Assembly: GCA_003116875.1 (NCBI GenBank)
Contig: BCKT01000013.1
Location: 999,455 to 1,063,454, forward strand
Direction: 5' to 3'
Source of the DNA: Takashimella koratensis
Lineage: Eukaryota > Basidiomycota > Tremellomycetes > Trichosporonales > Tetragoniomycetaceae
Length of the DNA stretch: 64,000 nucleotides
Shown here: positions 773 through 52,108 of the stretch, in pieces
Position numbering within the stretch: the first letter of the stretch is position 1
Layout of the letters: the number at the start of each line of letters is the position of its first letter
Notes under the pieces: generated by a model
Database searches by the model: none
Seen by the model: the letters and a program-made list of their open reading frames with translations, nothing else
What the model was told of the DNA's origin: nothing
Position numbers and translations under genes: made by a program

Positions 773-2231
773 ATGTTCAAAAACATTCTCCCTCCTCTTC
801 GCTCCGTTTCTGCAGCTCGATCCACCCCTCGATTTTCACCTACCTTCCCCAGAGCAATGGTCAACGTCCAGCAGTCCAACGGCGTCCACTCGGTCGCTTT
901 CGTCCCCTCGGCCACCCCCACTGAGCCCGTCCGCGTCCTCTACATTGGTGCAGGCAACAGTGAGTAGCACGTCCTCACCTCAGACCTCATGCTGACTTGG
1001 CTGCAGTCAACTTCGGCTCAGACGAAGGAGTAAGCCCGTTCATGTTGCGATTCCAGCTGACGCCTAGCCATGGAACCACTCGAAGCGTCTTGAGCAAAAG
1101 CTCGACACCCGACTCCAAGTGGTCGGCATCGTCGACCCGGCGACCGCACGTGCGCAGGGTGTCCTTGATGCTAAGCGAAGCTCTCTTGCTGCTGCTGCAT
1201 ACAAGAACGCAGCTTTGTATTCCTCGATCAAAGAAGCTGGGGAAGCACTCAAGTCCAACCCTCCTCACCTGATCCTCCTCGGTTCTCCCCCCGCCTTCCG
1301 TGGCCGGATCGACTCCAGCAAGGGCTTTGACGCGGAAGTTCAGCTCTCTGACGCGTTCCCCAAATCCGCTCTCTTCGTTGAGAAGCCGATCAGCTCGGGA
1401 CCCGTCGACGAGGCGATTGAGGTTGCCGACCTCCTCGAGTCCCGTAAATCCAACTTGGTCAGCGTAGGCTACATGCTTCGTTACTCCGCCGCTTCTCGCA
1501 AGATCAAGGAGATCATCGAGGAGAACAACCTCACAGTTATGATGACCTCGGCACGCTATGTCATGGGTAAGTCTACAGCTCCAGCACATACTGACCTCCA
1601 GCATACGAGTTTAGCCGGAAGCTCGCATGGTGGAACAAGGCGATCGATTGTGGACCGATCGTCGAGCAAGCGACCCACTTTGTCGACTTGTCTCGCATGT
1701 TTGGCGGCGATATCCTCCTCGACACTATCATGGCCCACTCGCTCGAATGGTACGAGGCTCCAGGAAAGCTCACCAAGCTCAACGTCGACGAGAGCTTGAT
1801 CCCCGAGGAGGACCGGATCCCTCGATTCACCTCGGCGACGTGGAAGTATGTGTCTGGAGCGATTGGTCATCTCGAGCACGGCGTTGCCCTCCAGGGCACC
1901 GAATTCTCCACTGAGCTCACCGTCTTCGCCGATGGGTACCAAATGAAGCTTGTGGACCCTTACAACCGGCCCACACTCTATGTTCGCCGACCGGGGTCTG
2001 ATAGCGAGGAGGTCTACAACTTCCACGACGACGACCCATTCCTTAGCGAAATGTCGACCGTCATCGACATGGTCGAGGGTCGCGAGCCCGCTGTCCCGGT
2101 TTTGTCCACCTATGCCGATGGTGAGTTCCTCCCTGCGCACGCTCGTGCTGACCTCTTCAGCTGTCAAGACTTATGAGGCGACCTGGGCAATCCGATTCGC
2201 TAGTGAGAAGACCATGCAGCCTCGTAAATGA
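773..2231 (+). CDS. Gfo/Idh/MocA-family NAD(P)-dependent oxidoreductase
   Basis: The product is about 432 aa from ATG 773, or 404 aa from the in-frame ATG at 857. There are five exons (introns 960-1006, 1030-1067, 1567-1601, 2121-2160), and the spliced length is a multiple of three. The Rossmann domain opens with VRVLYIGAGN. FVEKPISSG carries the EKP lysine typical of the family. DCGPIVEQATHFVDL, in the alpha/beta substrate domain, supplies the conserved histidine. The family oxidises or reduces sugars, polyols and related compounds with NAD(P); the substrate here is unknown. The first 28 residues from ATG 773 are basic and serine-rich, like a mitochondrial presequence, so both starts may be used. 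Its neighbour is a divergent sugar transporter, which suits a sugar-oxidising role. Confidence 0.85.
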
Positions 2232-2494
2232 GATGGACATTGTTTGTTGGGAGTTAGCGTTAGTGACCACACCTGTAATAGACCATTGGCTTCATAAATG
2301 CATCGGGTTACGTTCATGGCAGAAATGATCTCTACTCCGTTTTTCTTCAAGTTAGTCCTCAATCAGTTCAGCGCTGGACCCAGGTCAAGGTCGACACCGG
2401 ATTGCCAAATACATACACATGACTCTATATCGCACGGAACGCGATGTCTATCTCCGAAGCAGACCTGAAAGAAGGCAACTACAGTAAATGCTAG

Positions 2495-3327
2495 CTAGAC
2501 AGAGTGAATCATGTCTGTCGGCTCCAATCGCCACCGTCTGACGTCCACTCCGTTCGCCATGTCCACGGCATCCACTAACCACGTCAGAATCCATTCCAAG
2601 ACCTCTAACTCACCTCTCGCCAATGTCTCTTCCCACGAATTAAAGATCCCAGCTGCAAAGTTCCTCTTTGCCACGCGCATTCTCGACACCTCCGGCTCTA
2701 CCTCAATCCAGACTCTCAAATCCATCATCTCCGCGCATGTCTTCCATCCTGGCTGGGTGTAATGCGTGTAAAGCCCCTCGATGATGACGATCCGGTCCTG
2801 AGGCAACACAGCACCACCGGCAGCAACAGGGTCTTTGATGTGGTGGAGAAAAGTTGGGAAAGGAATCGACTCGCCCAGTCCGAGCTTTGAGAGCGGTTTC
2901 CGTAACTGCTCAACAAAGCTTTGGTACAGAGGCTGGTTGAAAGTGAATGCGGCGCCCTTAAAGATCAGCTTTCTGGACGTGGGAACGACCTACTCTTCTC
3001 CAGTGAGCTTCTACTGGGTCGGGCATCTCGTCAAGCTCTGCTCGCGAATAATGCCACCCGTCTAAAGGAACGGTGACAGCCTGGGGAGCAGGTACCTCAT
3101 AGTGGTCCCTCGACAAGTCGCTCAAAAGCTTGTTGAGGACAACGATTAAAGGATCCACAACAGTGCTCTTACCGCACCCCGGTGGGCCAGCAAGTCCAAC
3201 TAGTAATCTCTGGTCTTTAGGTTTTCTAGATTCATCGTTAGAGACGTTCTGATGTGATCTTGTTCTGGACTGACTTGGAAAACGAGATCAAGATTTTGCG
3301 GGCGAGCGCGTCGATTTGAGAGTCCAT
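2495..3327 (-). CDS. P-loop kinase, uridine kinase / YFH7-like
   Basis: The product is 248 aa in three exons (2994-3225 is the middle one; introns 3226-3274 and 2957-2993). The Walker A motif GPPGCGKST is near residue 30. LDGWHYSRAELDEMPDP, followed by AHWRRGAAFTFN, is the lid and substrate region seen in fungal uridine-kinase/phosphoribulokinase-like proteins of the YFH7 type. VIIEGLYTHY is the Walker-B-like strand, and a basic RMRVAKRN segment follows. The expected role is ATP-dependent phosphorylation of a small hydroxylated metabolite; the substrate is not known. The second intron ends in TTTAAG and the first has a GTCAGT donor, both slightly unusual, but they restore a frame matching the family. 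The gene is convergent with the oxidoreductase, 263 bp apart. Confidence 0.8.
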
Positions 3328-3943
3328 GGCAGTGGTGAATGCAAGGTAGTAGCGGCTCACGTCTACATGAAAACATAGTCTACACGTCTTGTTTCGCCGA
3401 ACCACATGGACCGGTGCCGATAGACCTCACTCACATTTTCCCCATTGAGACTTTCGGGTCGCCTCGACCCGCTCACCTTGAGTTCCTGCTTGCGGCGACC
3501 ACTTGACGGGTAAATGCTTGCCGTCGAGCATGTGTTCCCCACATCCCGCCGGTGCGCATCGCGGAATCACTCGGATGTTGTGGACAAACACGATAACCTG
3601 CCTGCTTCGGCCGTCGTCGTTTGCCCGGAACACAGGGTTCCGGCTCACAGTCTTCCGAGCGGAAAAGCCACTGACGTTAGTACGACGCCTTGCAACTGGA
3701 ATAAGAAACATCGAGACGCCGTTGTCAGATCTTCTGCATGTGGAACAGTGTGGACCGAACGTCGATACATCCCTGAGTCGTCAGAGCCTACCGGCCGACC
3801 TCCGACCGGCGGCTTCTCTGACCCGCTTCACGATGGTCAGATGCAAGACGCAAACGCGATCGCCCCCTCGCCCCTCGCTTCAAAAACTTTGCACACACAC
3901 ACGTCTGTTCACTCTCCAACACCACTCACAACAATCCACCAAC
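3328..3943. promoter_or_regulatory. Divergent promoter, kinase / SDR
   Basis: This is a 616-bp gap. The last 60 bases before the SDR start are rich in CA and CT (ACACACAC, then CAACACCACTCACAACAATC), typical of a fungal 5' leader. No TATA box or gene is evident. Confidence 0.4.
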
Positions 3944-32783: not shown

Positions 32784-35485
32784 ATGACACCATCGCCCCA
32801 ATCCGACGACGGAGCGAGCTCTGACTCTCCCGAGTCTCTCACAGACCCACAGTCTGTCTTCCGCCAGCGCTCAGACTCAGCAGGGGGCTCGACCAAGAAG
32901 CAAAAAGTTACTCGATCAAAAACAGCCTGTTTGCAAGTGCGTCTCGCAGGTTTGATCTCGAAGTTCACTGACCGGCTTGGCAGTGTCGGTCGCGCCGATC
33001 TCGGTGTGGAGCCCTTCCTCCCAATCGCTGTCCGAATTGTGTGCAACATGGCTTGGAATGCACCTGGCCCTTGTCAGATGGGCGTCGGAAACGTGGTCGA
33101 CCTCGAAAGAATCCAATCGGTACGGACGGCATGTCGTCTCCACGAGGTTCCTCCGGACTCACCGGTCGAGAAGGTAACACATCGCTGCCGCCAAATGCTC
33201 TCCCTTCATCTGTCACTCCGCCCAATTTCCTGACCAGAACCAACGTAGACGAAATGCCGCCGCCGCTCGCCGCCGACACACCATCGTCTTTCCCATCGTG
33301 GTCAATACCGCCTATTATAGGGCCCCTGGACTTTCTACCCCAGGCTCAAGATTCAGCTCAAGGCGACCTCACCGGGAACGTGCAAATCACAGCTTCGGCC
33401 TCGATGCCAATGATCTCCCAATCACACTCATCAGTGGCTGCATACCATGGCCAATTTCTTCCTTTTCGCCATCACGGTCGGACTGGAACGAATGCTGGTA
33501 AGCTTCAAGATGTGATCTTTGCTGACGGCGACGTAGGATTCGAGCACATTGACGTTCAAAGTCAGAGCGAACTTCTTCCTATCGGAAGCACTTTGTCACT
33601 GGACCCGCGTGGTCTGCCTAACCCCATGGTCATTCAAAATATCCTTGACTTGTATTTCACACACTTTGCCGAACGATTCCCTTTCATTGTTCGATCCGAC
33701 CTCTATAAGGGAGCTCCGCAGTTTCCGTTCGTCTTCCACTGTATCGGTGCTCTCGTCTCCAGGTGAGCCTTGAGACATACTCGTGCTCAACTAGACAGGT
33801 TCTCAGATCTCCCCGAGATATCGATGGGTCAATCACCTAGGCAAGGATACGGCGCGATCTTCCATGAGCAAGCTAGAAGGGAACTGGGGACCATGTTGAG
33901 CATCCCAAGCCGGGAGACAGTGCTTGGACTGCTATTGCTGGTCGAGGCGGCATTTGGAAGCGGTAGGTTGAACCAGATCTCAAACGATGGCTGCTGATGG
34001 TCTGCCCAGGCTCGAGAACGGAGATGTGGACATTAATGGGAATGGCAGTCCGCATGACGCTTGACACAACCTCACATATGGTAAGGTCATAGATGCTCAG
34101 GGGCTGACGTGCGATTAGAAAAAACCGGCTCATTTTGAGATTTCTGAAAACGACGAACGGTTGGACCGGCTCATGTTCTGGTCTGTCCTCATCATGGACT
34201 ACAGCTTGGCATTTGCTGAAGGTCGCAAGACGAGCATCAGTGGAGAGGATATACTACAAGAACTTCCTCGTGAAGACGATATGCCGCCGAGACAGACGGT
34301 ATCTGGTCTAAGCGATGATGGTAGCGAGCTTCGATCTCCTTTCCCATTCGCAGCGGAGATGATCGTGACGTTTGGGCCTGCTATCGACATCTTCAATAGC
34401 ATGGCGGCGGATCAAAATGACATCGTGCGCGGAGAGTCCATACGGCAGCTTCGCTCGCGAGTCGCTGCTCAATATGATGAGCTACCGTTGGACATGACTT
34501 GGAACGCCGCCAAGTGAGTGAGGTGTCGCGCTAGCTCAGGTTTATACTCATATCATTAGCTTGCAAAAGCATCATCGCGCGGGTCACGGACCGATGTACC
34601 TCTTCCTACATCTGTGGAACCACACGATTCAGGTGAGTTCTGAGTTGACCCACGACTGACGATCGACAGTGCTCGCGCTATCTTTACGATCCCGGAAGAG
34701 AAAAAGAAAGTCCATCCAGCTTTGGTCCCACGGGTAAAACCGATCAGATCACTCTGCAGTCCATTCAAGCGGGCTCCTGGCTACACTGCGCACGGTTCAT
34801 CGGTGACATGCTGGTCCTTGCCGACGTTATCGACGCACGCATGTTCTTGGCGGTTCCATCTCTCAATCATTGCTTTTTCGTTGCTGGCCAGTGTTTTATC
34901 GAAGGTGCGTTTGCATGCGATTGTCGGTGCGCTGCTGACGTCGTGAAGATCTTGGCGCGCGCCTTGGATCCGAAGTCGGGCAGAATCCGGAGCCGGAAGA
35001 TGGCAGCCCAGCTCAAAAGAAAGCTACGCTCTCTCGCACGTTATTCAAAGCGATCGCGATCGACAACATCAAGTCTCTCAAGCAAGGCCTGACCAAACAG
35101 TCAGAGTTTTGGGACGGTGTCAAGCAGGTCTTGTCAATCTTCGATTCTCGATTTGAGGTAGTTCGAGGCGTCAACGCACCCAAGGCGGGCTCAGGTTCGG
35201 CCGTGAACCTGTTGCCTTTCCTTGAAGCCCCTCACGACCTGGGTTTGGACTGGACGACGGGTGGTTTGGAAGGGCAGACGGCGATGGATGGTGCAAGAGA
35301 GAGGGTGACATCTCGTAACATTGGTGAGGCATTGCGAGGGATTTGATACTGATGTACCAGGCGACGCATCGGCGTTGATCGCATCTTTATACTCGCCAGG
35401 TGGACTTCCGTTGTGGAACACGGGTCAACAGATGGCGACGTCTCCGACCGATCTGCTTCGATTACTAGGACTTGAAATGGGTTGA
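32784..35485 (+). CDS. Zn(II)2Cys6 transcription factor 3 with AT-hook
   Basis: Start MTPSPQSDDG is followed by a Ser-rich acidic N-terminus. The zinc cluster, interrupted by an intron three residues after the first cysteine, reads C-LQ-C-RSRRSR-C-GALPPNR-C-PN-C-VQHGLE-C. Immediately after it, GRRKRGRPRKNP contains an AT-hook core (RGRPRK). A long Ser/Pro linker precedes a Fungal_trans-type domain starting at LPNPMVIQNILDLYFTHFAERFPF. The gene ends LLRLLGLEMG after about nine exons. One intron near 34.9 kb ends in TGAAG. The protein is nuclear and may contact AT-rich minor groove next to its CGG site. It lies between the alpha-mannosidase and MFS porter 2, so its targets could be on either side. 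Confidence 0.88.
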
Positions 35486-35754
35486 GGGTTAGTATGAAGG
35501 GGTCTTTTTTAATGGTGATGAGTGAGAAGGGGCGGACCTAAACAGCGCGTAGAGCCAATGCCATCTTACTGTCGGAGGGCAGCAAGATGTATCTTCAATC
35601 AATCTTTGCACATACTTTAAACAGTTGATATCCTATTCATAGACTGTTACTACATAGTCAAACTACAGGTGATGATAGCTGGCAGACTTTGACGATGGCC
35701 CGATCCTTTTTACCCTTTGAAATACTGAAACAATCTCATTTCGCAACGACTCGC

Positions 35755-37619
35755 TTAGTGACTCGTGATACCCTGTTCCTGACGCATCTGCTCGTCGGCG
35801 TCCATGCTGACTTGAGTAGTCTTGAACTTGCGGGCGGGCACCTTCTGAGCGAACAAGACGTCGAGCTCGTAGTAAGTCCTGCCCTTCATCTCGGGGAGAC
35901 GGAAGTAAGCCCACACGAAGCAGAAGAAGCAGATGCCGCCCCAGAAGAAGCCCCTACAGGTTGTCAGTCGGATTCTGATGGACTGTGAAAGTCTGACTCA
36001 CATCTTGCCCGCCCAGTTCCACTGGGTAGGGTTAAGCATGTAGGGGACGAGGACACCGAATGCGACAGAGAAAACGTTGTAGCTCATTCGAGAAAGAGCA
36101 ACCGTCTTGTTACGGAGACGAGTGGACGAGGACTCGCCCACGATGGTGTAAGCGAGTGGGCCGACCGTCATGTCGTAGGTGAAGAGCCAAGCTACCATGA
36201 GTCCAGCTTGGCCCCATCGAGCGCCTACGTTACCGTGGTCCGCAGCGACGGAGAGGCCGCCGATGAGGATTTGACCAATGGTGAGGGCGGCAAGACCAGA
36301 GACGAAGATTGTGCGACGGCCAAAGTAGGTAAGGAGAACCCACGAAAGGCTGGTGCCAATGAAGGCTGCGGCGTACAGGGCAATCGTCATGTCGAACGCG
36401 TAGAGAGTGCTCAAACCAGCCTGCTCGAAGAAGTAGGTCGAGTAGTTTGCGAACTGTAGGCCACAAAGGATCTGAATGGTCCAACAGACAACGGAGATCT
36501 CGGTACGGCGACTGGAAATGTCAGAGAAAGTTCGTGTACAAGAACTCACAGATCGGTACCTCTGAAGCAGTCCCAGAAGTGGGTCCCAGCGCCGACGTCC
36601 TTCTCGAGCTCGTTGGTGCGAACCATCATCGAGACAACGTCTTGAGCGCGGCTGGTCTCCTGAGCTGGGGCAAGACGCTGGATGGACTTTTCAGCCTTGT
36701 CGAGCTTGCCCTTGCGGACGAGCCACCACGGAGACTCGGGAGCGAACAAGAGCGCGAGGAAAAGGGGAACGGGCCAAGCCCACTGAACGGCAAACGGCAT
36801 ACTACAAAGATCAGCGAACATCGGAAACCACTGACTCACCGGTAGCTCCAGACACCAGTCATCGAAGCCGACTTTCGGAGGATGCCAGCACCGACAAAGT
36901 GTCCAATAACCCAGCACATGTTGACGAAAGTTGTGAAATAACCACGAAGACTGACAGGGCAGACTTCACTGGCATAGGCTTCGGCAAGAGTGGAGAACAC
37001 ACCCCAAGGGAGACCCGCGAGCAACTCTCCCGCGAGCAAAGCTCCCTTGTTGGGAGCGAATGTGATGAGGCCAATGATCGGGCAGATGGCGGCGAGGTTG
37101 ACGAGAACGGTGATGCGGTACCCCCACTTGTCGACGAGGAACGCACCCATCAAGACACCGAAAAAGGAGCCAATGTTGGCGCCTTGCTGGAGACCTGCTT
37201 GCCACGATGCAGCGATTTGGTAGCCAGCAGTAGCTCCCCCATATTCGCCAAACTGTAGAGGTTGTAAGTATTGAACTCATGATGACTCATCCCAACACTA
37301 ACCTGCTGCTTGAAAGCCGGAAGGGCGAAGAGCGAACCAAGGAGCAACGTGTCGTACGCTTCCATGATGATGCAGAAGGATGCACAGACACTCCAGAAGA
37401 CGGCCTATGACAGTCAGCCTGGCAACATGAAACTGTGTCATCACTCACAGCCTTGTAGATCTTCAAAGACTCGAAGATGCCCAAGTTTCGCTGGTACTCT
37501 TCGCCACGCTGGGCCTCGACCTTGATGTCGTGCCACTGAGTCTCCGGCTTGCCGGTCTCGATGTCGGAGCTGCCTTCGACGTGCATGATGTCTTGCTTAG
37601 GTTCGTTGATGTCGGCCAT
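35755..37619 (-). CDS. MFS sugar-porter-type transporter 2
   Basis: The product is about 560 aa in some seven exons, starting MADINEPKQD. Features are VCASFCIIMEAYDTLLLGS (TM1), GAFLVDKWGYR, EAYASEVCPVSLRGYFTTFVNMCWVIGH (MAL-type motif), FAPESPWWLVRKGKLDKA, LLTYFGRRTIFVSG, and LPEMKGRTYYELDVLFAQKVPARKF at the C-terminus. It belongs to the alpha-glucoside branch of sugar porters. TM1 has MEAYD rather than the usual MDGYD. Its promoter is shared with the TauD-type dioxygenase and carries the ATTCGGAA motif also found in the SSU1/regulator promoter. Import of a sulfonated sugar or related substrate is inferred, not shown. Confidence 0.85.
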
Positions 37620-38349
37620 GTCGATGAAAGACGATAGGTTTATATATGTTGCGAGGGGCCGTCGATTTCGATTGCGGGGCTTTGACCAAATGAAAGCACG
37701 CAATTGGCGTTCACTATGATGCGCTGGAATGGTGATGAGGGCCCCGTGGAGGCTGCGTCTTATACCCCGATCAGAAGTGACGACGGTGGAAGGACGGTCC
37801 GGCGTGAGGAGTGGTCGCCGACTTCAACATTACCGCCCAGCGAGCGATTCGGAAGAGTTTTTTTTTCCTCGGCGTGCGGGGCCGGATGGAGATCCAGGAC
37901 GTTGCGGGGTGGAGGTTGTTTTGAATTGAAAATGAGGGTGACATGTGTCGTGAAAGTGGTAACGTGATCAGCCGCGTCCGCAGTGTCAGAATTGCCCAAT
38001 GGAGCAGTTTCAACGGCTTCATCGGTGACTCCAGAAGAAGCCTTGTGACTGTAGTCGGCGTCTTCGGCTTCTCCAGCGGGATTTTGAGCACGTCTTCATG
38101 AGCTAATACGAGCGGTTCTCACATTTCTTTGTCAAGCGGGTCGCCGACGAGTCCGTGTCGGCTTGTTGTTGGCAAAGACAGACGCCGAACGATCACGTCT
38201 GAACTGAGAAGAAACATGGAGAAGTCATACGATAACCGACAGCCGCGGGGCAACAAGCGCTCCTTCTTCCTGACCAACCTCGGCCGTGATATTTATAAGT
38301 GTCGTTTTCTCCATCGACGTCAAGTCAAAGATTCTACATCACAATCACA
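37620..38349. promoter_or_regulatory. Shared promoter, MFS 2 / TauD dioxygenase
   Basis: This is a 730-bp divergent promoter. It contains ATTCGGAA at 37847-37854 (within CGATTCGGAA, 37845-37854), 226 bp from the transporter start. A TATATAA element lies close to the transporter ATG (about 37640), and TTTATAA at 38292-38298 is about 52 bp upstream of the dioxygenase ATG. No gene is seen. Confidence 0.6.
37845..37854 (+). promoter_or_regulatory. CGATTCGGAA candidate regulator site
   Basis: This 10-mer is identical to the one at 41729-41738 and to the reverse complement at 41762-41771 in the SSU1/regulator promoter. It contains a CGG triplet, as expected for a Zn2Cys6 protein. Confidence 0.55.
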
Positions 38350-39633
38350 ATGGCACCCATCGCTACCGTCACCGAAGTCGCAGCTCCCACCGAGTCTCTC
38401 AAGACCCTCAAGCTGAGGGCGGCGCCCGCTCCTCACGGCACCGACGATGTTCGAGGCAAGAACAGGCTTCCAGGCCCAATGAAGTACAACGGTCTTTTGG
38501 ACAAGTACCCAGTGAGTGATACGAATTGGAATCATGTCGAAAACTACTGATCAGCGCAGCACTTTGAGGTAACTCCGTCGATTGGACGCGAATTTGCCGC
38601 CGACCTCCAGCTTAGCGACCTCCTCGAGGCATCAAACTCCGAGGAGCTCATCCGGGACCTCGCGGTATTGATTTCTCGTCGAGGTGTCTGCTTCTTCCGA
38701 GGACAGGAAATTGGCCCCGAGGGCATGATGAAGCTTGCTGCTATGATCGGCCAGCTCACTGGCAAGCCCAAGGAGTCTAGTGAGTTGATGTGATAATGTG
38801 GTTGCTTGTTGTTATTGACAACTCCCAGACATGTGCTTGCACCCGGTCTCCGAGTACACGCCCGAGCTCGCCAACACCCCCAAGACTCAGAGCATCTCTG
38901 CAAACACCCAGCGCAAGGGTGGTGGGATCAACCGTCGATTTGAGGACGTCTCACGTTGGTCCTCGGTTGCTTGGCACTCGGACGTTTCATTCGAGAACTG
39001 CCCCGCCGACTACTCTCTGTTGAAGATCAACATCCTCCCTCCATCTGGCGGTGACACCATGTGGGCAAACACCTACGATGTGAGTTGTCACTTTCTCAAA
39101 TGGGCAACCACTGACAGTACCAGGTGATAGAGAAGATGTCCCCTTCGATGCGCGAGTATCTCGAGACCATGACCGCCGAGCACAACGCCAACTTCTTCCA
39201 CGCCGAGGCCGAGAAGCTCGGTCTCAAGGTCCGCAACGACCTCGTCCGTGGCAACCCTCTCAACGTTGGCGACAACCTCGTCGCTCACCACCCAATCATC
39301 CGCACCAACCCCGTCACCGGCTGGAAAGCACTCTTTGTCAACCGCGGCTTCACGCACCGAATCGACGATGTCACCAAGGACGAGTCTGACATGATTCTCA
39401 ACTACTTGAACCAGATCACCATCCACAACTTTGACAACCAGGTCCGCTTCCGATGGGAGAAGGGATCGCTCGCTATCTGGGATAACCGATGCACCTGGCA
39501 CTCGGCTACGTTCGATTACGACGAGGAGCGCCAGGGCGACCGTGCCTCGAGCATCGGCGAGCGACCATACCTCGATCGCAACAACAGCATTCTCAAGAGC
39601 GAGGGGCTCAAGGCTGAGGGGAACAAGTGGTAG
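38350..39633 (+). CDS. TauD/TfdA-type Fe(II)/2-oxoglutarate dioxygenase
   Basis: The product is about 390 aa in four exons. VLISRRGVCFFRGQE and HPVSEYTPE are early TauD-fold blocks. WHSDVSFENCPADYSLLKI supplies the HxD iron ligands, and PPSGGDTMWANTY is the strand that follows in the family. IWDNRCTWHSATFDY gives the distal histidine, and the arginine expected to bind 2-oxoglutarate lies shortly after (YDEERQGDR region). Such enzymes hydroxylate the carbon next to a sulfonate, sulfate ester or phenoxy group. With taurine-like sulfonates this releases sulfite and an aldehyde. It is convergent with an SSU1-type sulfite exporter, supporting a desulfonating role. It is cytosolic, with no signal peptide. 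The substrate is not fixed by the sequence. Confidence 0.9.
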
Positions 39634-39953
39634 TGGTGTCAGATCATTTTGTAACGTGTTGTGATCCTGTATTTAGTAGCACGTTGTTCTTATGAATTCC
39701 TTGAAATGGATCAAGATTGCCAATTGTGGTACCCAGTAGATTACTAGCCGTTCATATCTCCAGTTTTGACTCTCGTATGACCTTGTAAGGTAAAGACAAT
39801 CATCGTGTTGTTATTCTTTTCGCTCATTGTTTCGAGTCATGAGCAATTACCGACGTGTCTCAAGGTTAGAGACTGCAGCTCACAGCGGAGCCCATAGTGA
39901 CTGATTATGTCTATCAACTTGCATGAAATCTTTGGTACACGATGTCTACATGT
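39634..39953. other. Convergent 3' spacer
   Basis: This is 320 bp between the dioxygenase and SSU1 stop codons. It is AT-richer than the genes, as expected of 3' UTRs; nothing else is seen. Confidence 0.4.
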
Positions 39954-41492
39954 CTATTTCTCTGGGTCTACCGTCTTGGATTGCCAGCGAACGGGCGGCT
40001 TCCCTTGGAACATGGCAAGCTCCGGAGCCACAAAGATTGTTCCGTCCCAGATCTGATAAAATCAGCAAGTGAACACATCATCGTTGATGACTTACCTTGT
40101 AGATGGTCAAGACGGAGACGTAGAGCCAATGCAAGGTTACCTGGACAGACAGGAAGGTCCCCAATACCTTGAAGGCGGGCGAATCGAGCTGTGTTGCGAG
40201 AGTGTCGGTAGCTGTGGCAAATACACCGATCGGGAAAGTGATCGCCCAAAGACCGACGCTAAAGTTCTTGGCCCAAAAGAAGTCGCGGTGCTTGCGAACA
40301 TGGTCGATGACGATGGCAAAGGCGAGGATGTACCAAAGAAACCCAAAGCCCCAAAGAACAAGCCCGGTCACCAAACCACCGGTGTAGATCGCATCCGCCA
40401 TGCGCAAGATCGACTCCGATCCCTGCGAGAGCCCAAAGCCAATGTTGTAGTTGTAGGCAAGATCACGAATGACAATGCACAGCTGCATGATTCCGAACGA
40501 CCCTTGGCCGCACGGTCCAAGGGGGAGGAAGACGGAACAGAGCGCAGCGGGAGCAGGGATGCCACCGATAGCTGTTCGATAGACATAGAGGGCCATAACG
40601 AGGCAGGCGAGCGGAACACCAGTGCCCCAGATCACATAGGATACAATCACCGTTGATCGAGCGAGATGTGGGTCAAAAGGGGCAAGGGCATTGGCAACGA
40701 GACCACCGGAGGCTGCCGCGACGACGGAGGCGACAATGGGGAGGAGGAAAGCGGGTGAAACGGATTGAGCGGTGTGGGTTTGGCGTGTGAAACTGTGTGT
40801 AAGCGACGGCCGATATCCTCAAACCTACATCATGAAGACCATTCCGAAGTTGGCAGCGATTGACATAAGAACGTCAATCCACCAGAGAGCGAGAGCGAGA
40901 CGCGCCCAGGGCTGACCCCAGGCGGGGACACATACGATCGCCACCATGTTCTGTTGATTAGCTGAAGTTGCAAGAACAAAGGTCGACTCACAACAATGGT
41001 GGCAAACCCCATGGGCAAGCATCCCCAAAAGAGGCCGGAGACAAGGTGAGAGTTGACCGCAGTGAAGAGACCCTTCCAGCGAACGTATCGGATGATGTTT
41101 GCGAATGCGAGTAGGGCGAAAACGAGTATGTTCAGGACAAAGATGACGATGCCTAGTCGCTGGAGCCACTGTGCATTATATGGGAGGTTGTGGATAAGAA
41201 TCGAGGTGATCCCAGTGCCCATGTTGATTGAGAAGAAGGAGGGCGCCAAATTCATGAGAGCTTTCTCGAGTCGCGCGCCGAGAGATTGTCGCGGTGGCGA
41301 AGATGGATCTGCAAGCTTAGACACGGTAACGGGAATATGTTGCGGCGAGGACGGTTTGTCTCCGAGGGTGGACGTGGAGGCAGTACTTTGGGGTGCACTT
41401 GGGGGCGACTGTGCTCGCGAGCGATCAATCTCCACCACGCCGCCGGCTTCTACTTGTGCTTGTACCGCGCTCGGGCTGGGTTGGGACGACAT
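39954..41492 (-). CDS. SSU1: SSU1-type sulfite efflux pump (TDT family)
   Basis: The product is about 430 aa in four or so exons, starting MSSQPSPSAVQ. A Ser/Pro-rich cytosolic tail precedes about ten helices. LMNLAPSFFSINMGTGITSILIHNLPY is the first helix and matches the tellurite-resistance/dicarboxylate transporter (C4-dicarboxylate/malic-acid) family to which fungal Ssu1 belongs. WKGLFTAVNSHLVSGLFWGCLPMG, ANFGMVFMMF and LGPCGQGSFGIMQL are further typical blocks. Ssu1 exports sulfite across the plasma membrane; malate transporters are the main alternative. The C-terminus is soluble (APELAMFQGKPPVRWQ). The neighbouring TauD dioxygenase would generate sulfite, which favours the SSU1 reading. 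Confidence 0.88.
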
Positions 41493-41655
41493 CTTTGCTA
41501 GCCTCGGGATCGTTGGGAAAGAAACACGAAAAAGTTTAGGGATCTGTGGGCTCCATCTACGAAGCAAACTGTGTATATACGGTATGCGGTCGCATAGAGC
41601 ACAGCGCGGTTCGAATCGGCATGTAACGCCGTCCACCAGCTATAGACCATGGTGA

Positions 41656-41663
41656 TTCCGAAT
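41656..41663 (-). promoter_or_regulatory. ATTCGGAA candidate regulator site 1
   Basis: TTCCGAAT on the plus strand, 164 bp upstream of the SSU1 start. Confidence 0.5.
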
Positions 41664-41728
41664 GGCCCCTGTGAGAACACTACGAAGCCGGAGCGGTTTC
41701 ATGTAGAACGAAGTGGCCGACTCGCCGC

Positions 41729-41771
41729 CGATTCGGAAAATTCCTATTGTTTACATCATAATTCCGAATCG
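41729..41771. promoter_or_regulatory. Inverted pair of CGATTCGGAA sites
   Basis: Arms CGATTCGGAA (41729-41738) and TTCCGAATCG (41762-41771) are perfect complements, 23 bp apart. The left arm is preceded by C, giving CCG-ATT-CGG, a compact inverted CGG pair typical of Zn2Cys6 dimer sites. Confidence 0.6.
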
Positions 41772-42131
41772 TTCTCGGGCGGTTCCTCCCGGCCACAGCG
41801 GCTACTCCACGGGTACTCTGGGTGCAACCATCTTACGCTTTGCCTTGCAGGGCCCAGCGGCTTCCTCCAATCCCAAGTATGCCGATGCACGACACTGCCA
41901 AGGCTGCTGGCAATGAGTAGTAGCCGGCGCCGCGGCGGGCGAGAGAGTGGGATGAGATTGTGACGGTGGAAGAGATAGGCGCGTGACTGCCCGTTCAGCT
42001 TGTCAGATCTTCAAAACAGGCGTGCCACGACCGGAGCATGCGCTACCCGGCGTTCAGTTTTCCCGCTGTCGTCCCCGGGTCCTTTGAACATCTACCCATC
42101 CCACAAACATCGGTGACTGTCTGCGGCAACC

Positions 42132-45043
42132 ATGACCGAATCATCCACAACAGTAGCAGGTCCTAGTTTTCCACGGCCTGTCATTCTCCCGACACGGAGT
42201 GACCCGTCTTTGGCCGAGAGTGCGTCTCCGACAGAGACGCAAAGGTCAAAGCCTGCCCAAAGCGAGCCGCCGCGGGCTCGAGCATCTCGAGCATGCTCTT
42301 CGTGTAATCGGCAAAAGCAGCGCTGTGATGGCCAGTTGCCCTGCTCTCGATGCATCACGCTTCATCACCCCGAGTCGTGCGAGTACCTGCCTTCACTTCG
42401 CGGCAAGACCAGGAAGCGTAAAGTGCGACCCGAGCCCAGTGCGAAGAAGCGGAGATCGACAACGGCATTGTATGACGATGATGACGATGACGATTCGGTC
42501 GAAGAAGGCGGGCATGAGGAGGACGGAAGGATACGCGCAAATCAAATGGACGGCCAGTTTTCCAACTGGAAACGGGACAACGCCATGGCGGACAAGGGTC
42601 CAACAAATTCAGTTCTGTGGTCAACCTCTGAGCGCCGACAGACTCATGGAGTTCGAGATCGATTAACGACGCTTCCTCTTCCTGGGGATGCCCACAATCC
42701 CTTGGCTGTTCTTGCCGAGGCTTCGGCAACTGCGCACACCGACGATGCCGATCAGACTGGGGAAGGTCGATTGAAACTGTCAGTGAAAGAGAATCCCATG
42801 GGTATCAGCGGTCAGAGGCAAGAAGATCAAGATGGTAATGGTGTCTACTATGCGCCTCTTCAGAGGGTGCTAAAGGAAGAGGCGCCTCATATCATGCGTT
42901 TCATCAATGTACACGAGTGAGTAGAGCATCTATCGGCAGCTGACGACCAGAGCGGAACAGTTGTTCGACATGTACTACAAGTACCTGCATCCCCACTTGC
43001 CGTTTTTGGATCGCGAGCACTCGGGACCGGCAAGCCTCGCTCGCCGAAGCAATTACCTCTTCAATGCGGGTGAGTAAAGAGTATGGTCGTGTACTGACGC
43101 TCAGTCTGCTGCAGCGCAGCCCGGGCATTCAATATCGTCCTGTGGGGTCGACTGAAGGAGTTCGCGCGCTTTGAAATGGAGAGGATGCCTCGGGAGAAGA
43201 ACATTGACGTATGTGGAGTCACTAGCAGTTGCTGACATGTTTAGGTCGTGCAGGGCCATCTCATCTATGCGACGTGGAAGTAAGCACCAGGAGATGTTCA
43301 TCATTGACCAGCAGCCTCAATCGACCTCGATTGTTCGAGCAAGACCAGACCTGGCTTCGTACAGGATTGGCCGTTCGCACAGCGCTCGATATCAACATCC
43401 ATCGCGTCGCACTGGTCCGTGCAGCCCGTGAGGGGCTGCCATACTGGTTACTACGGACGATTATTCGAACATGGCTGCTTGCATATGCGCTGGATGGGAC
43501 TCTCAGCGCACAACTGGGCAAGCCGTCAAGTCTCCGTGGGGAAACCAGCGTGGAGACTTGCATCAAGCTGCTCGAAGGCGATGCAGCTGGAGGCCAGGAT
43601 GACTGGCAAAGTGCATCGAGTAAGAGTGAAGACTTGTGGGTCGCTGCTCTGGCGGTGAGTCGTCCTCCTCTCTTCGCTGACACCAGGAATGGACACAAAT
43701 TCTGACTCGAGCGAACGATGCATTCCGAGCGGACGCTTCTTTGCGGTCGGTTCCACCTTCACCCGCGGGATCGCCTCGACGTGCACCTGCGTATCTCGCC
43801 CATCACGTATCATTCTCACCCTTCCCCGACCTCTGCTCCGTCTTCTCCAGACAATTTTCTCAATGGCTTGAGAGGACATCGAGCCTCATTTCCCGTCTTG
43901 GTCTCGAGGGAAAGCAAGAACGCGACCTCGTTGCCAGCTTGAAGATGTACGAGCGATACGCCAAGCTCATCGTTTGCAGTTTCGGCTTGCAAAAAGCAGC
44001 CGGAGCTGGGGATAGAGGAGGGGCATTGGCAGGATCGTTCACCGAGTATACCAGCGCGGCGATCCTACTCATCCAGTCATTCCAACCCGACGCTGGATCC
44101 CCAGGGTTGACACGAGGAACACCCGACCTCAACTTCAGTATCCTCACCTACGCCGTGGTCTCACTGCTCAAATGTCTTCAGCCCCAATACGCCCACCTTG
44201 AGCCGAATCGTCAGAGCATCTTACACATGGCACGAGGTTCGGCGGACGCTCTTGCTCGCGCGGCGATGACACCCGACCACCTGCCAGCTTCTCAATCGAT
44301 CTTCCTCTCACGGCTGATTGATGCACGCGAAGCGCAGGTTGTCACCCCCAGTGGAACACGATTGGGTCCTGCGGCGTCAGCATTGGCTACGGCACCGGAA
44401 TGGAAAGAACCGTCCATGGCCGACTTTGAGCGATTCGGCGAGGGTGTTGAGCGCGATCAAGCAAAGTCACTGTGGCCACCGATGCCATCGCCGAGCAACA
44501 CCATGAACCCGTTAAGCTCGATGCTTGGTTCCGCAACGTCACCTCAGACTCAAGCCTGGGAGAGTCTTCTAAACTCTATGGCTGCAGGTGGTGGGTTGAT
44601 GTCGACCTCACCATCGACTGGGATCACGCCGTTCAACAATCTCGATTCTTTCGTCTTGTCAAATATGGGACCGGCAACTTTCGCGTCGAACCCGAACGAC
44701 GGGACACTTGCTATCGACACTGTTCAGTCTCACAGCTCGTCGACTGCCGATGCTGGCGCAAATCCATCCGTCACTTCCGGCCCGGACACCGGGATGTCCA
44801 CGTTTGTCCCCAACCCACCCGCTTCCAACCTCAGCTCCTGGCTGGAGCAGAATCAGTTCTCTGTTCCAGGTGCCGCGCTTGGTCTGGGCGCTGGGGATAG
44901 CTTTGAAACTGATGGCATGTCCCTCATGGGGTTGTACAACGAATGGTACGTAATCACAGTCTGTTGAAGGCCACCGCTCATTGTCGAATTACAGGAAATC
45001 GATTTTGGAGAGACCGACGGGGGCCCAGAATGAACTGGTGTAG
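42132..45043 (+). CDS. Zn(II)2Cys6 transcription factor 4
   Basis: The product is about 860 aa. The zinc cluster near residue 55 is uninterrupted by introns: [21 protein letters not shown]8-C. A basic stretch ([18 protein letters not shown]) could serve as nuclear localisation signal, followed by an acidic run of Asp residues. The middle homology region has [35 protein letters not shown] and [21 protein letters not shown]. The long Ser/Pro/Asn-rich C-terminus may be an activation domain. The last exon ends NELV. The gene diverges from SSU1 across a promoter holding three ATTCGGAA elements and is followed by an aldo-keto reductase 181 bp on. It is the obvious candidate regulator of this cluster. 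Confidence 0.9.
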
Positions 45044-45224
45044 CCAAGGTGTGCTTATGGTTTCTTGGAAAATTGTAAAAATATGCAACACCGAAATAGC
45101 CGCTGAAGAAGCCGATTTGCAATTGCAACTGTGTCAGGTCGATGCCGCTTATTCCCCGCCAGCTCATGATGCTTATGAGCTACGTCCATCTTTCCAACAT
45201 CTCCATCTCTCCTCGACAATCGCA

Positions 45225-46319
45225 ATGGCACCTCTCGCTCCTACCCTCTCTCTGTCCTCTGGATATGCGATGCCGCTTCTCGGCTTGGGGCTGTGGAAGA
45301 TCCCCAAGCCCATCGCCGCGGAGACCGTCTACCAGGCGATCAAAGCCGGTTACCGTTTGCTTGACGGTGCGTCCGACTACGGCAACGAGGTCGAGTGTGG
45401 TCAAGGTGTTGCGCGAGCGATCAAGGATGGCCTCGTCAAGCGCGAGGAGCTCTTCATCGTCAGCAAGCTTTGGAACACGTACCACCGTGAGGACGTGGTC
45501 GAGAAGGCGTGCCGTCGAAGCTTGGCCGACTGGGGGCTTGACTACTTTGACCTCTATTTCATCCACATGCCCATTGCGTTGAAGTATGGTACGTCGGGAT
45601 CATGGTTCACGCTGACAATACAGTCGACTTTGACACCCGCTACCCGCCAGGATGGTCCTACGACGGTACACCTGACGGCAAGCTCGAGATCGAACCGTCC
45701 CCAATGTACAAAACGTGGGCTGCCATGGAGTCCCTCGTCGAGAAAAAGCTTGTCCGCTCCCTCGGTGTCTCTAGCTTTGGTGGAGGTCTTCTCATGGACC
45801 TCTTGACCTATGCTAAGATCCGACCGGCGGTCACCCAGGTTGAGATGCACCCGTGAGTAAACCTGAGTGTGTCGGGGGCTAGGCTAAACTCCTACAGCTA
45901 CCTCGTCCAACCCGACCTCCTGAACATGTGCGCGGCATTTGACATCAAGGTCATGGCCTTTTGCTCCTTTGGTCCCCAGTCGTGAGTCCTGGCGGTAATG
46001 CCTCTGCTGACAGTACAGCTGGATTGAGCTCTCATCTCCTCGGGTCGCTCTTGTGGGATCGCTGTTCGACTCCCCGCCGGTCCTCGCCGCTGCCAAGGCA
46101 CACTCTGTTTCTACTGCCCAGGTTCTCCTTCGCTGGGCGACTCAGCGGAACGTCATTGCGATTCCCAAGTCGACCAAGGTTGAGCGACTCGAGGAGAACT
46201 TGTTGAGCTGCACCTTTGACCTGAGCAGCGACGAGTTGGACGCCATCACCGCGCTCGACCAGGACTTTAGGTTCGCCAACCCCGCCGCTGTTGACCCTCG
46301 TATCTCCATGTTTGCATAG
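45225..46319 (+). CDS. Aldo-keto reductase, D-xylose reductase type
   Basis: The product is about 320 aa in four exons, starting [17 protein letters not shown]. The tetrad is visible: Asp and Tyr in [11 protein letters not shown], Lys in [11 protein letters not shown] and His in [23 protein letters not shown] and [12 protein letters not shown] follow, and [15 protein letters not shown] is the cofactor-phosphate region (IPKS) with Arg and Glu close by. The sequence is closest in pattern to fungal XYL1 xylose reductases, which reduce aldoses to alditols with NAD(P)H. It is the first gene downstream of regulator 4. In that context it could instead reduce the aldehyde left after desulfonation of a sulfosugar; this is inference. 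The protein is cytosolic. Confidence 0.92.
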
Positions 46320-46597: not shown

Positions 46598-48787
<2,190 letters not shown>

Positions 48788-48883: not shown

Positions 48884-51800
48884 TTACGAGATATAATACG
48901 CTTGGAATTCGCTCAAGCCAATGTTCTGTGAGCTACTACCAACCGAGGTGACAGTGAGGGTGATCGCAGTCACCGTTTTGGGAGAGAAATTGAAAGGCGT
49001 CGCGCCTCCAGCGTTATCAAGCGATGTGACGGTGACCGATGAGCCATCGGAGAAGTCGAGACGTCCACCAGTGATCTGAGAAGATTAGCAAGATTCACTC
49101 CAACTGCACGAAAGACTCACCCAGTCATTCAGGTTGGGTCTGTCATAGAGGACGATCTGGTTGATGGTGACACTGGAAGTCCAAGTGACACTCCACCAAG
49201 CACCAACAGTTTCACCGTTAGAGGACCACTCGACGGTGTAGTCGCCAGGGTAGCCGCCAATCACTCCGTCGATGGCCTTGTTGGGGGTCTGATAAGTCGA
49301 TGCGGCCCAGCTGGACGCGTTGGCGCTACCTTGCAGGGCAAAGTCGGCTGAGGTCGCCGTGGCGGAAGAGGATGAGGAAGTGGTTGACGAGCTCGATTTA
49401 CTAGAGGTTGAGCTTGTCGGAGTAGCACTGCTGGTAGATTTGGGGCTGGAGCTGGACGAGCTGGAAGACGCTTTGCTGGTGCTGACGGAAGACGCGGAGG
49501 TACTGGCGCTTGAAGCGGATTTGGAGGAGGACGAGGAAGAACCTGAGGTCGAGGAAGAGCCAGAAGAAGAGGACGAGCGGGATGATGATGTCGAAGACGC
49601 GATTGAAGCGGAAGACGAAACTGACGCCGACTTGGACACGGAGGAGGAAGCCGAGGTAGATTTCGCTGAGCTGGAGGAGCTGGAAGAGCTGGAGGAGCTG
49701 GAGGGTGTCTTGGATGCCGAGCTGGATGAGGACGACTTGGAAGAAGACCCCGAGCTGGAAGAAGACTTGGTGGAGGTGACAGAGCTGGAAGAGGACTTGG
49801 AGGATGAAACGGAGGAAGTCTTTGACGCAGAGCTGGAAGAGGATGCAGTTGACTTGACCGAGCTGGACGACGCCGACGTCGATTTGACCGAGCTGGTCGA
49901 TTTGGCACTCGACGAACTGGATTTGGAGATCGAGGAGGTCGAGTTAGTAGCGGAAGGGATCGTCGTCGTTGTCGTCGTGTTTGGCGAGGTGGTATTGGCG
50001 AGAGTTGTGTTGTCGACCGTAGAAGAGCTAGACCGTCAGCCTGAGGACAAGTCTGATCACTTACTTTGCTGTGGTACTGGTAATGTAGTATGCCTGGAAC
50101 TCGCTCAACCCGACGTTTTGAGTGGTGCTGCTAACGCTTGTAATGTTGAGGATGAGATAGTCGACAGTCCGCATAGCAAAGTTGAACGTGGTAGCACCGC
50201 CAGCGTTGTCAAGAGTCGTGACCGCCAAAGTTGATCCATCGGAGAAGGTAATGATACCCGCAGTGATCTGATCGTTCAGGTTGGGTCGGTCGTAGAGAAC
50301 AAGCTGGTTGATCGAGACAGAAGTCGGCCAAGTAAGGCTCCACCACGCGCCCACACCTTGCCCATCCGACGCCCACTCTGCCGAGTAGTTGGCAGGGTAA
50401 CCACTGATGACGCCATCGATAGCCCTGTCTGGCGACTGGCCGTTGGAGACGCTGTAGCTGGAGGCGTCGGCTGTCCCGTACAGTGCCAAATCGGACGATG
50501 TCATGACGATTGGAGTGGTAGTCGACGTGGAGTTTGTCGAGGTCGTGTTGGTGCCGAACTCGCCGTACACCTGGAATTCTGACAAACCGATGTTTGAGGT
50601 AGTCGACGCGACTCCAGTGACGGTGAGCTTGATCGACTTGGTGGTGTGTGTCTTGGACAAAGTGATGACCGAAGCTGTGCCATCGTTGAATACACCGCTG
50701 ACAGCCTCGGTAGAACCATCATCGAAGAGCAATGTACCCGTTTGAAGCCAGTCATTGGTGTTCGGCCTAGACTGTCAGTTTGGCGCACTTGAATGACCTA
50801 CCTGTCATATAAGACGACAGCGGAAACAGTGACGGTAGTGTTCCAAGTGAGAGTGATCCAAGCACCGACCCCCTGTCCGTTGGACGACCACTCGACAGAT
50901 GAGTCACCAGGGTAGCCACCGATGACGTTGTCGATGGCGGCAGCAGCACCTTGACCGGATGCAGCAGAACTGACTGTAGCCACCGCCTGCAGAGCAATGT
51001 TGATACCAGCTGGGAGGACCGCAGGGGTCTCTGCGAAGCCGTCGTTGGAGGTTTCGGCGAGCGCCGCAGTGACGATGTACTGTCGTTGGAGCCACGAACC
51101 GTACCCTTGGCCGTTGCAGACTGATGGGGATTGGCAGACCATCTAAAGATTAGTAAGATCCCATTGGGTTTAACTCACGTAGTCGTAAGGGGTATACGAG
51201 TAGAACGCATTCGTCTTATTAATATAATCTGCCGAGCTTGTGGATAGAGTGGCGGGAAGGTTCTGAAGATGAGCATTGATCTTACATATGAGACGTACTT
51301 CGTTGGGGTAGCCCATGTAACCAGCAAAATTGGTGTTGCCAACGAGTCCCGCAGTGATCCTGGCAGTCGTCAGATGGTCGGGGTGGTCTCCGCCGTCATA
51401 GTCGCTGAGGTAGTCAAGCGTTCGCACGTTACTAGGTGCGAGGGCGGTGAGGATTTGGGAGATACCGGCTTGAAGTGCGGCAAGGGTGAATGTCGAAGTC
51501 CCGTCAATGGCGTTGATGGCGCTAATCTCCTCAAAGTAGAGACGACGCAGCGATTGGTAACTACAATTAGCTCTGGGCTTGCGGTCGACCTACTCAGTAG
51601 CAACGTAGCCGTTCGCATCAAGATCACCATCAGGGAAGCGGAAGTAGACTCGCTGGACTCGAGGTGCCTGAGTGAATGTCCGCACCAGAACCGATTGACC
51701 GCCAATAGTCTGATACACATCCGAATAAGTCGCGTTGATACCGAGCATCTCGGCATACGCCATGACGTTGCCCAGCTCCCGGCTCTCCGCATAGGCCAAC

Positions 51801-52108
51801 CCCGCTCCGGCATCGCCCGAGGTCAGGAATACGGTGGTGATGCACATGTTGGAAGTGAGTTCGTGGTAGAGGGTCGGACTTTGGAAGAGCAGATCGTCGT
51901 CCGGGTGTGCCACGACGTCTGTAAAATGAGTCTAGGTCTCGTGAATTTGTCTCTACTCACAAACTGAACCACTGCGACGTCAGCTCTACACTGCTTAATA
52001 GACTCACCCTGTACATGTGAAGCTGACAGCGGCGACGGTGTGGAGGCATAGTGCGAGAACGAAAAAGAGGGCGGCCAGTCCCCGCGGAGAGGACGATGAG
52101 CCGAACAT
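48884..52108 (-). CDS. Secreted PIG-L/LmbE deacetylase fused to three discoidin-like domains
   Basis: The product is close to 960 aa. The signal peptide is MFGSSSSPRGLAALFFVLALCLHTVAA. The PIG-L domain has VVAHPDDDLLF, FLTSGDAG and GGDHPDH, the zinc-binding and catalytic motifs of N-acetylglucosaminyl deacetylases. Three related F5/8-type-C-like repeats follow, each with AIDxVIxGYPxx, a W-S/A-S-(N/D)-G motif, VGAWxxLTW and VVLYDRPNxND, ending IGLSEFQxY. A Ser/Thr-rich linker of about 200 residues separates repeats 2 and 3. The second exon is an 11-nt microexon (51961-51971). The enzyme would act outside the cell on an amino-sugar polymer, with the repeats as carbohydrate anchors. No GPI signal is seen at the C-terminus (FQAYYIS). 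Confidence 0.85.
49330..49970 (-). repeat. Serine-rich low-complexity coding tract
   Basis: On the minus strand this encodes long Ser runs mixed with Thr, Ala and Lys. It is an O-glycosylated-stalk type of linker within the PIG-L fusion. The nucleotide repeats (AGCTCC/TCGTCC-like codons) make it prone to length variation. Confidence 0.8.
51961..51971 (-). other. 11-nt microexon of the PIG-L gene
   Basis: On the minus strand TGGTTCAGTTT lies between GTCGCAG and GTGAGT and bridges T-C-T-G-G-S-V-Y into VVAHPDDD. Without it the deacetylase frame is lost. Confidence 0.7.

Follow-up and report, generated by a model that had tools for sequence, protein, structure and literature searches.

The 64-kb window analysed here (positions 999455-1063454) is the terminal part of the 1,063,454-bp contig BCKT01000013.1 (contig C13) of the tremellomycete fungus Takashimella koratensis, whose 25.1-Mb genome is assembled in 24 contigs. 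It contains five neighbouring genes that are considered here as a candidate cluster for the oxygenolytic use of an organosulfonate: a major facilitator superfamily (MFS) permease, a TauD-type dioxygenase, an SSU1-type sulfite pump, a Zn2Cys6 transcription factor and an aldo-keto reductase (AKR), lying on the minus, plus, minus, plus and plus strands, respectively. The genes were spliced by hand-checked exons, with introns of 32-50 nt that are bounded by GT-AG and in many cases carry a CTGAC-like branch site. An earlier note on this DNA had read the five families from the sequence at these positions, and profile scans of the spliced products agree, all families scoring above their curated domain cut-offs (PF02668, PF00083, PF03595, PF00172 and PF00248). 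Given the gene order and strands, the MFS and TauD genes lie on one divergent promoter, and SSU1 and the Zn2Cys6 gene on another. The features, in window positions, are as follows.

35755-37619, minus strand: predicted importer of the sugar-porter MFS family, 548 amino acids in 6 exons, alpha-glucoside:H+ symporter-like.
37620-38349: shared divergent promoter of the MFS and TauD genes, with one ATTCGGAA site at 37847.
38350-39633, plus strand: TauD/JLP1-type Fe(II)/2-oxoglutarate dioxygenase, 380 amino acids in 4 exons (38350-38511, 38560-38779, 38829-39079 and 39124-39633).
39954-41492, minus strand: predicted SSU1-type sulfite efflux pump (SLAC1/TDT family), 472 amino acids in 4 exons.
41493-42131: shared divergent promoter of the SSU1 and Zn2Cys6 genes, with three ATTCGGAA sites at 41656, 41731 and 41762.
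42132-45044, plus strand: Zn2Cys6 transcription factor, 888 amino acids to a stop at 44967, or 897 with a 49-nt intron spliced and the end near 45044.
45225-46319, plus strand: xylose-reductase-type AKR, 325 amino acids in 4 exons; membership of the cluster unsupported.
46598-48787, plus strand: glycoside hydrolase family 13 gene (GH13, PF00128), alpha-glucosidase-like by eye, a rough machine exon model directly downstream of the AKR; membership unsupported.

The dioxygenase matches the TauD profile PF02668 with 174 bits (cut-off 27), and taurine dioxygenases are its nearest matches of solved structure (E 3.7e-35). All 28 aligned rows carry the iron triad, H177-x-D179...H337, unchanged, in agreement with the earlier description of a TauD-type Fe(II)/2-oxoglutarate enzyme with a distal histidine. 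Three further residues are likewise kept in all 28 rows, E. coli TauD included: R347, which we take to be the counterpart of the 2-oxoglutarate-binding Arg266 of that enzyme, together with H132 and R351, presumably equivalent to its sulfonate-binding His70 and Arg270. The columns of TauD Tyr73 and Asn95, assumed here to be taurine contacts, are both occupied by serine; canonical JLP1 rows do not keep these residues either, and the two columns therefore do not separate a sulfosugar substrate from the scavenging of small sulfonates. The best relatives among the matches listed are Tremellomycete proteins, that of Cutaneotrichosporon spelunceum first (71%), and in the tree the enzyme is not placed with canonical fungal JLP1: it belongs to a Tremellomycete clade of 13 rows (100/100), distinct from the ascomycete JLP1-like rows and the Cryptococcus type. 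Sixteen positions distinguish 21 rows of this clade from 100 others, the 21 including four fragments (P0022, P0072, P0081 and P0099) and some rows absent from the tree and placed by identity (P0004, P0007, P0013 and P0015 among them); five of the positions (130, 175, 180, 352 and 353) lie at most three residues from ligand or anion positions. As judged from these alignments, the dioxygenase is a separate branch, but its clade-specific residues name no substrate. The TauD alignment, scanned against bacterial and archaeal contigs, gave 38 pattern matches, none of which was confirmed as a relative.

The neighbouring exporter matches the full SLAC1 profile PF03595 over positions 1-331 with 272.4 bits (cut-off 27.9) and falls below the cut-off of the NCBIfam tdt model (114.3 against 237.25); no solved structure matched it by sequence. 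Its relatives are named SSU1, with some named malate or C4-dicarboxylate transporters, and its identity as SSU1 is drawn from similarity and from these names. The assignment to an SSU1-type exporter is thereby upheld, with sulfite transport as its predicted activity. The genome search found two SLAC1 genes, the cluster copy and one on contig C3. In the tree, the C3 copy groups with the SSU1s of Cutaneotrichosporon, Vanrija and Cryptotrichosporon (98/98), which, with the TauD relatives, puts the fungus near or within Trichosporonales, and the cluster copy lies outside this Trichosporonales group, at a position among other Tremellomycete SSU1s that the tree does not settle. The genome also holds another JLP1-like gene, at C5:6k (L039 3981-5295, plus strand), which groups with the Cryptococcus type (97/92), as a rough model on a long branch. 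Because the genome has this second JLP1-like gene and the other SSU1 on C3, the cluster copies look specialised.

The importer belongs to the sugar-porter family, with 273.6 bits against Sugar_tr PF00083 (cut-off 22.3) and 314.6 against the sugar-porter model TIGR00879 (237.8). These scores far exceed that against MFS_1 (46.0 bits), and the protein would accordingly not be a member of the DAL5 allantoate permease family. Its relatives among the matches listed are alpha-glucoside:H+ symporter-like, one orthologue being so named. It forms part of a 9-row clade (100/100), with rows from Kockovaella, Naematelia, Kwoniella (three), Tremellales sp. Uapishka_1 and two further rows (jgi and ena), which stands apart from the other sampled permeases; its paralogues in its own genome are at most 58% identical over the matched pieces. 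Position 209 is histidine in all nine clade members, and glutamine in 106 of the 111 other rows, with histidine in the remaining five. In the multiple alignment His209 occupies the column of Gln175 of E. coli XylE, and the columns of XylE Gln289 and Tyr298 are likewise clade-specific (Ile327 and Asn335); all three XylE residues are presumed sugar contacts. A histidine in the sugar site would suit an anionic sugar. A sugar porter is, by itself, a weak clue at this locus, since the window holds at least four PF00083 genes plus GH3, GH31 and GH38 genes; a sugar-like sulfonate is favoured because the importer combines this family membership with near-site columns that differ from those of ordinary alpha-glucoside permeases.

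That these genes are associated beyond chance follows from their numbers and their recurrence: the genome has at least about 15 TauD loci (a lower bound, counted from 25 exon matches) and only two SLAC1 genes, one of which adjoins this TauD, and the pairings recur in relatives. Relatives of TauD, SSU1 and the MFS were searched for to the best 120 matches each, with rows representing 90% clusters (7 sequences in the case of one Kwoniella MFS row); genes were called as lying on the same contig where their contigs were of identical length in bp, and gene order was taken from locus tags. The earlier note had set down beforehand that a lack of co-occurrence in related genomes would speak against the proposal. 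Instead, among the matches listed, TauD and MFS share a contig in all four named species with both in-clade genes, and TauD and SSU1 are linked in three of the eight species for which both are named. In Naematelia encephala and Kockovaella imperatae the orthologues of all three genes lie on one contig (158,138 and 784,392 bp), in Tremellales sp. Uapishka_1 TauD and MFS are on contigs of 38,230 bp, and in Kwoniella dendrophila they carry the consecutive tags L201_000003 and L201_000004, the sole case in which adjacency is shown. The third species with linked TauD and SSU1 is C. spelunceum, where the genes are three tags apart; the SSU1 concerned is of the C3 type in the tree, and this link is therefore of different origin. 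The K. dendrophila pair has nearly the lowest locus tags in its genome and may, like the window, lie at a chromosome end.

A shared promoter word provides a second connection. Counting both strands, the 64 kb hold just four copies of ATTCGGAA, of which one lies in the MFS/TauD promoter and the other three in that of SSU1 and Zn2Cys6. In random segment pairs of the window, some 8-mer restricted to two stretches of such size attained four copies in 4 of 5000 cases; in dinucleotide shuffles this happened in 1 of 1000. Among the genomic sites of its 10-base form, CGATTCGGAA, the sole pair within 100 bp and the sole triple within 20 kb lie at the cluster; for a word that was chosen here, uniform placement reproduced the triple in 0.4% of trials and the pair in 0.7%. 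ATTCGGAA was absent from five other 9.9-kb loci that were checked, one of the C3 SSU1 and four from among the some 14 further TauD loci, and it was not found upstream of the AKR or GH13 genes. The Zn2Cys6 factor, which matches Zn_clus PF00172 with 28.5 bits (cut-off 21) and reaches 20.9 for Fungal_trans, under the cut-off of 23, might be guessed to bind it. The introns of this gene go down to 32-36 nt (window 42917-43686), which is unusually short for fungi.

The AKR stands differently. It is of the xylose-reductase type that had been claimed for it, with 149.5 bits against Aldo_ket_red PF00248 (cut-off 24) and 50% identity (153/306) to Candida tenuis xylose reductase. With a yeast xylose reductase as query it is also the genome's best match, its first exon scoring 143.4 bits against 107.0 for the next locus. 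The simplest view is that a general aldose reductase, or the xylose reductase of the cell, may just happen to lie next door. Lacking the promoter word, and being the best xylose-reductase match, it is no longer counted as a cluster member, although it could reduce the aldehyde that desulfonation would yield. An SSU1 model of Saitozyma podzolica (P0123), fused to an AKR, was considered as support for membership and rejected, as the fused part most resembles aflatoxin aldehyde reductases (AKR7-like) and not the AKR of the window. The model lies on a contig of 252,499 bp, different from that of the S. podzolica TauD (1,066,819 bp), and the fusion is perhaps two neighbouring genes joined in annotation, hinting at an SSU1-AKR neighbourhood there.

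Taken together, the balance tips modestly towards a small cluster near the contig end through which a sugar-like organosulfonate is used oxygenolytically. As kin of alpha-glucoside:H+ symporters, the MFS would import the sulfonate, its direction and substrate being predictions. The JLP1-like dioxygenase would hydroxylate the sulfonate-bearing carbon, with conversion of 2-oxoglutarate and O2 to succinate and CO2, and the hydroxylated product would split into sulfite and an aldehyde, for which the neighbouring AKR is one candidate reductase. The second SSU1 would export sulfite beyond the sulfur need of the cell, and the Zn2Cys6 factor would probably activate both divergent promoters, possibly via ATTCGGAA. 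Of the five-gene route put forward in the earlier note, the importer, dioxygenase and exporter are retained, as belonging together on account of their linkage in relatives, the shared promoter word and the extra SSU1 copy; the AKR is not. The sulfosugar part of that proposal survives in a broader form. A sugar-like sulfonate is suggested by the importer family and its clade-specific residues, by the separate dioxygenase clade and by the extra sulfite pump, most readily explained by the formation of sulfite in excess of what sulfur metabolism requires; export of this excess would in turn imply use of the compound as a source of carbon as well as of sulfur. The sequence data show the genes and their families, the metal and cofactor residues, the clade-specific changes, the linkage in some relatives and the common promoter word; transport direction, sulfonate substrate, sugar-likeness, carbon use and regulation are all inferred.

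A number of observations weigh against this reading. Other genes of the JLP1-like kind can provide for plain scavenging of sulfur. The match of the importer to XylE is uncertain, as a pairwise alignment gaps Gln175 and shifts Gln289 and Tyr298. ATTCGGAA was found by looking in these very promoters, word sizes of 7 to 10 were examined, which leaves a fair motif figure some fourfold weaker, and the 10-mer CGATTCGGAA is common genome-wide, at 74 sites where the control word, its reverse, has 21. A shared contig, as in Naematelia, Kockovaella and Uapishka_1, is no proof that the genes are adjacent. Ten of the 14 named TauD-bearing species, which include two placed by identity only (rows P0013 and P0015), have no in-clade MFS by name among the matches listed; the MFS is clearly not an obligatory partner of TauD, though absence is weak evidence with 90% clusters and the best 120 matches. 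SSU1 is unlinked to TauD in five of the eight species, namely S. podzolica, Uapishka_1, Kwoniella pini, K. heveanensis and K. botswanensis. In K. botswanensis the two genes are on one 18.2-Mb contig, 6,000 tags apart; in Uapishka_1 and K. heveanensis the genes are on small contigs, and SSU1 may yet be linked there. Kwoniella CBS 9459 and K. dejecticola have the MFS, with SSU1 on another contig, and do not enter the TauD counts.

Among the alternatives, plain sulfur scavenging is a serious one, if distinctly less probable. When sulfur is limiting, the JLP1-like enzyme would then act on small sulfonates such as taurine or isethionate, the importer having been recruited from the sugar porters and SSU1 being a safety valve. 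The accessible part of one study reports that Jlp1 of S. cerevisiae degrades isethionate and taurine, and, citing Kensche 2008, that in Basidiomycota and Eurotiomycetes the orthologues of JLP1 lie together with a predicted transporter, of which the DAL5-family carrier Soa1 is the orthologue (PMC5303821). JLP1-transporter pairs are thus already known, and the resemblance extends to a TauD-family enzyme, a neighbouring transporter gene and sulfite as the expected product. The some 50% homology of ascomycete JLP1-like proteins to the dioxygenase favours scavenging, as does the fact that most named TauD species list no in-clade sugar porter, so that the enzyme can work without the MFS. Scavenging accounts less readily for a partner that is a sugar porter rather than a DAL5-family permease of the Soa1 type, for a neighbouring extra SSU1 copy, needless if all sulfite were assimilated, and for the other JLP1-like gene elsewhere in the genome. 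The locus also differs from the known pairs in that its enzyme belongs to a separate Tremellomycete TauD clade. The sugar-porter partner and the neighbouring extra SSU1 are the variation on the known pair.

More doubtful is the narrower proposal of sulfoquinovose (or its glycerol glycoside) as the substrate, imported by the sugar porter at a His-bearing site, desulfonated by the JLP1-like enzyme to 6-oxo-glucose and reduced to glucose by the AKR, with sulfite exported by SSU1. Many Tremellomycete yeasts inhabit leaves and plant litter. Sulfoquinovose is specifically favoured only by an argument from abundance, its production being put at about 10 billion tons a year (PMC12890257, part of the text), and by analogy with the bacterial dioxygenase route. 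That route, the sulfo-ASDO pathway of Marinobacterium aestuarii, is described in the available portion of the same review as comprising SqoD, SquF and sulfite excretion (PMC12890257). The likeness lies in an Fe/2-oxoglutarate dioxygenase (likened to SqoD by family only), a nearby reductase gene and a sulfite exporter; the cluster differs in being eukaryotic, in its putative reductase and substrate, and in that no sulfoquinovosidase was found among three YihQ-like GH31 loci. Tyr508, one of the QQRWY residues that we take to be the sulfoquinovosidase signature of GH31, was seen in none of these loci, being replaced by phenylalanine on C16 and C5 and by a gap on C15, with the other QQRWY residues outside the alignments; this counts against sulfoquinovose as the candidate substrate.

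It is unlikely that two unrelated sets of genes share a nutrient-use island close to the contig end, with TauD and SSU1 interspersed by chance among the genes of a MAL-like alpha-glucoside locus (MFS, GH13 and Zn2Cys6). A fungal MAL-type locus consists of an alpha-glucoside permease, an alpha-glucosidase and a Zn2Cys6 regulator. The present locus has a permease closest to the alpha-glucoside family, one orthologue being so named, a GH13 neighbour at 46.6-48.8 kb and a Zn2Cys6 gene, in a window that ends where the contig ends and that is a carbohydrate-use island, with at least four PF00083 genes, GH3, GH13, GH31, GH38, GDSL esterase, Gfo/Idh/MocA and short-chain dehydrogenase/reductase genes, some of them, like GH13, rough machine models. 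It departs from a MAL-type locus in that its permease shares a contig with TauD in 4/4 comparable species and has clade-specific changes near the sugar site, and in that ATTCGGAA is common to the MFS/TauD and SSU1/Zn2Cys6 promoters and absent upstream of GH13. Action on a sulfate ester (as by AtsK) or a non-sulfonated substrate is very improbable: AtsK and phenoxypropionate dioxygenases are homologous and sulfate-ester use has been proposed for fungal members (PMC5857272, in part), but AtsK chemistry releases sulfate, for which SSU1 would not be required, TauD proteins are the best relatives of solved structure, and His132 and Arg351 are kept, though possibly binding other anions.

Returning to the use of a sugar-like sulfonate, the predicted control of SSU1 by the cluster factor has a parallel in Zcf2 of Candida albicans, which we take to be a Zn2Cys6 factor. 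In the part of the report available, the Zcf2-Ssu1 module is one of sulfite tolerance in which this transcription factor controls SSU1 (PMC13170222); the arrangement here differs in that the factor gene and SSU1 share one promoter. Fungal sulfonate metabolism as described in the accessible parts of three papers comprises JLP1-type enzymes, monooxygenase homologues and Soa1-type carriers (PMC5303821, PMC5857272 and PMC13170222). Searches on fungal use of sulfoquinovose, on fungal sulfoquinovosidases, on JLP1 together with SSU1 and on clusters of a sugar transporter with a sulfonate dioxygenase gave nothing on this arrangement among the literature matches listed, outside which subscription papers mostly lay. 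According to the available text of a review of January 2026, every known pathway of sulfoquinovose degradation belongs to bacteria, with none characterised from a eukaryote (PMC12890257); the sulfoquinovose proposal, if true, would make this the first eukaryotic route, in Tremellomycete yeasts. The unit gives concrete genes for asking whether fungi use sulfosugars as carbon, and even with another sulfonate it would extend what is described of fungal sulfonate metabolism by a second family of transporters and a logic of carbon use.

Further genes were observed around the cluster and elsewhere in the genome. Upstream of the MFS lies another Zn2Cys6 gene, read by eye at about 32786-35486, and on the minus strand at 48884-52108 of the window there is a secreted-looking gene, PIG-L deacetylase-like by eye, with an HPDDD motif at its start and long serine-rich low-complexity stretches between repeated segments. 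At C5:2100-12000 (L039) the other JLP1-like gene adjoins a divergent PF00083 MFS gene (1696-3349, minus strand) near the contig end, with a sulfatase-like fragment nearby (SGSH_C, 29.0 bits, just below the cut-off of 29.3), making this another possible organosulfur locus. At C16:1-9900 (L041) a distant TauD-family gene is located near an MFS gene that matches MFS_1 and not Sugar_tr, a pairing that may resemble the DAL5/Soa1 type.

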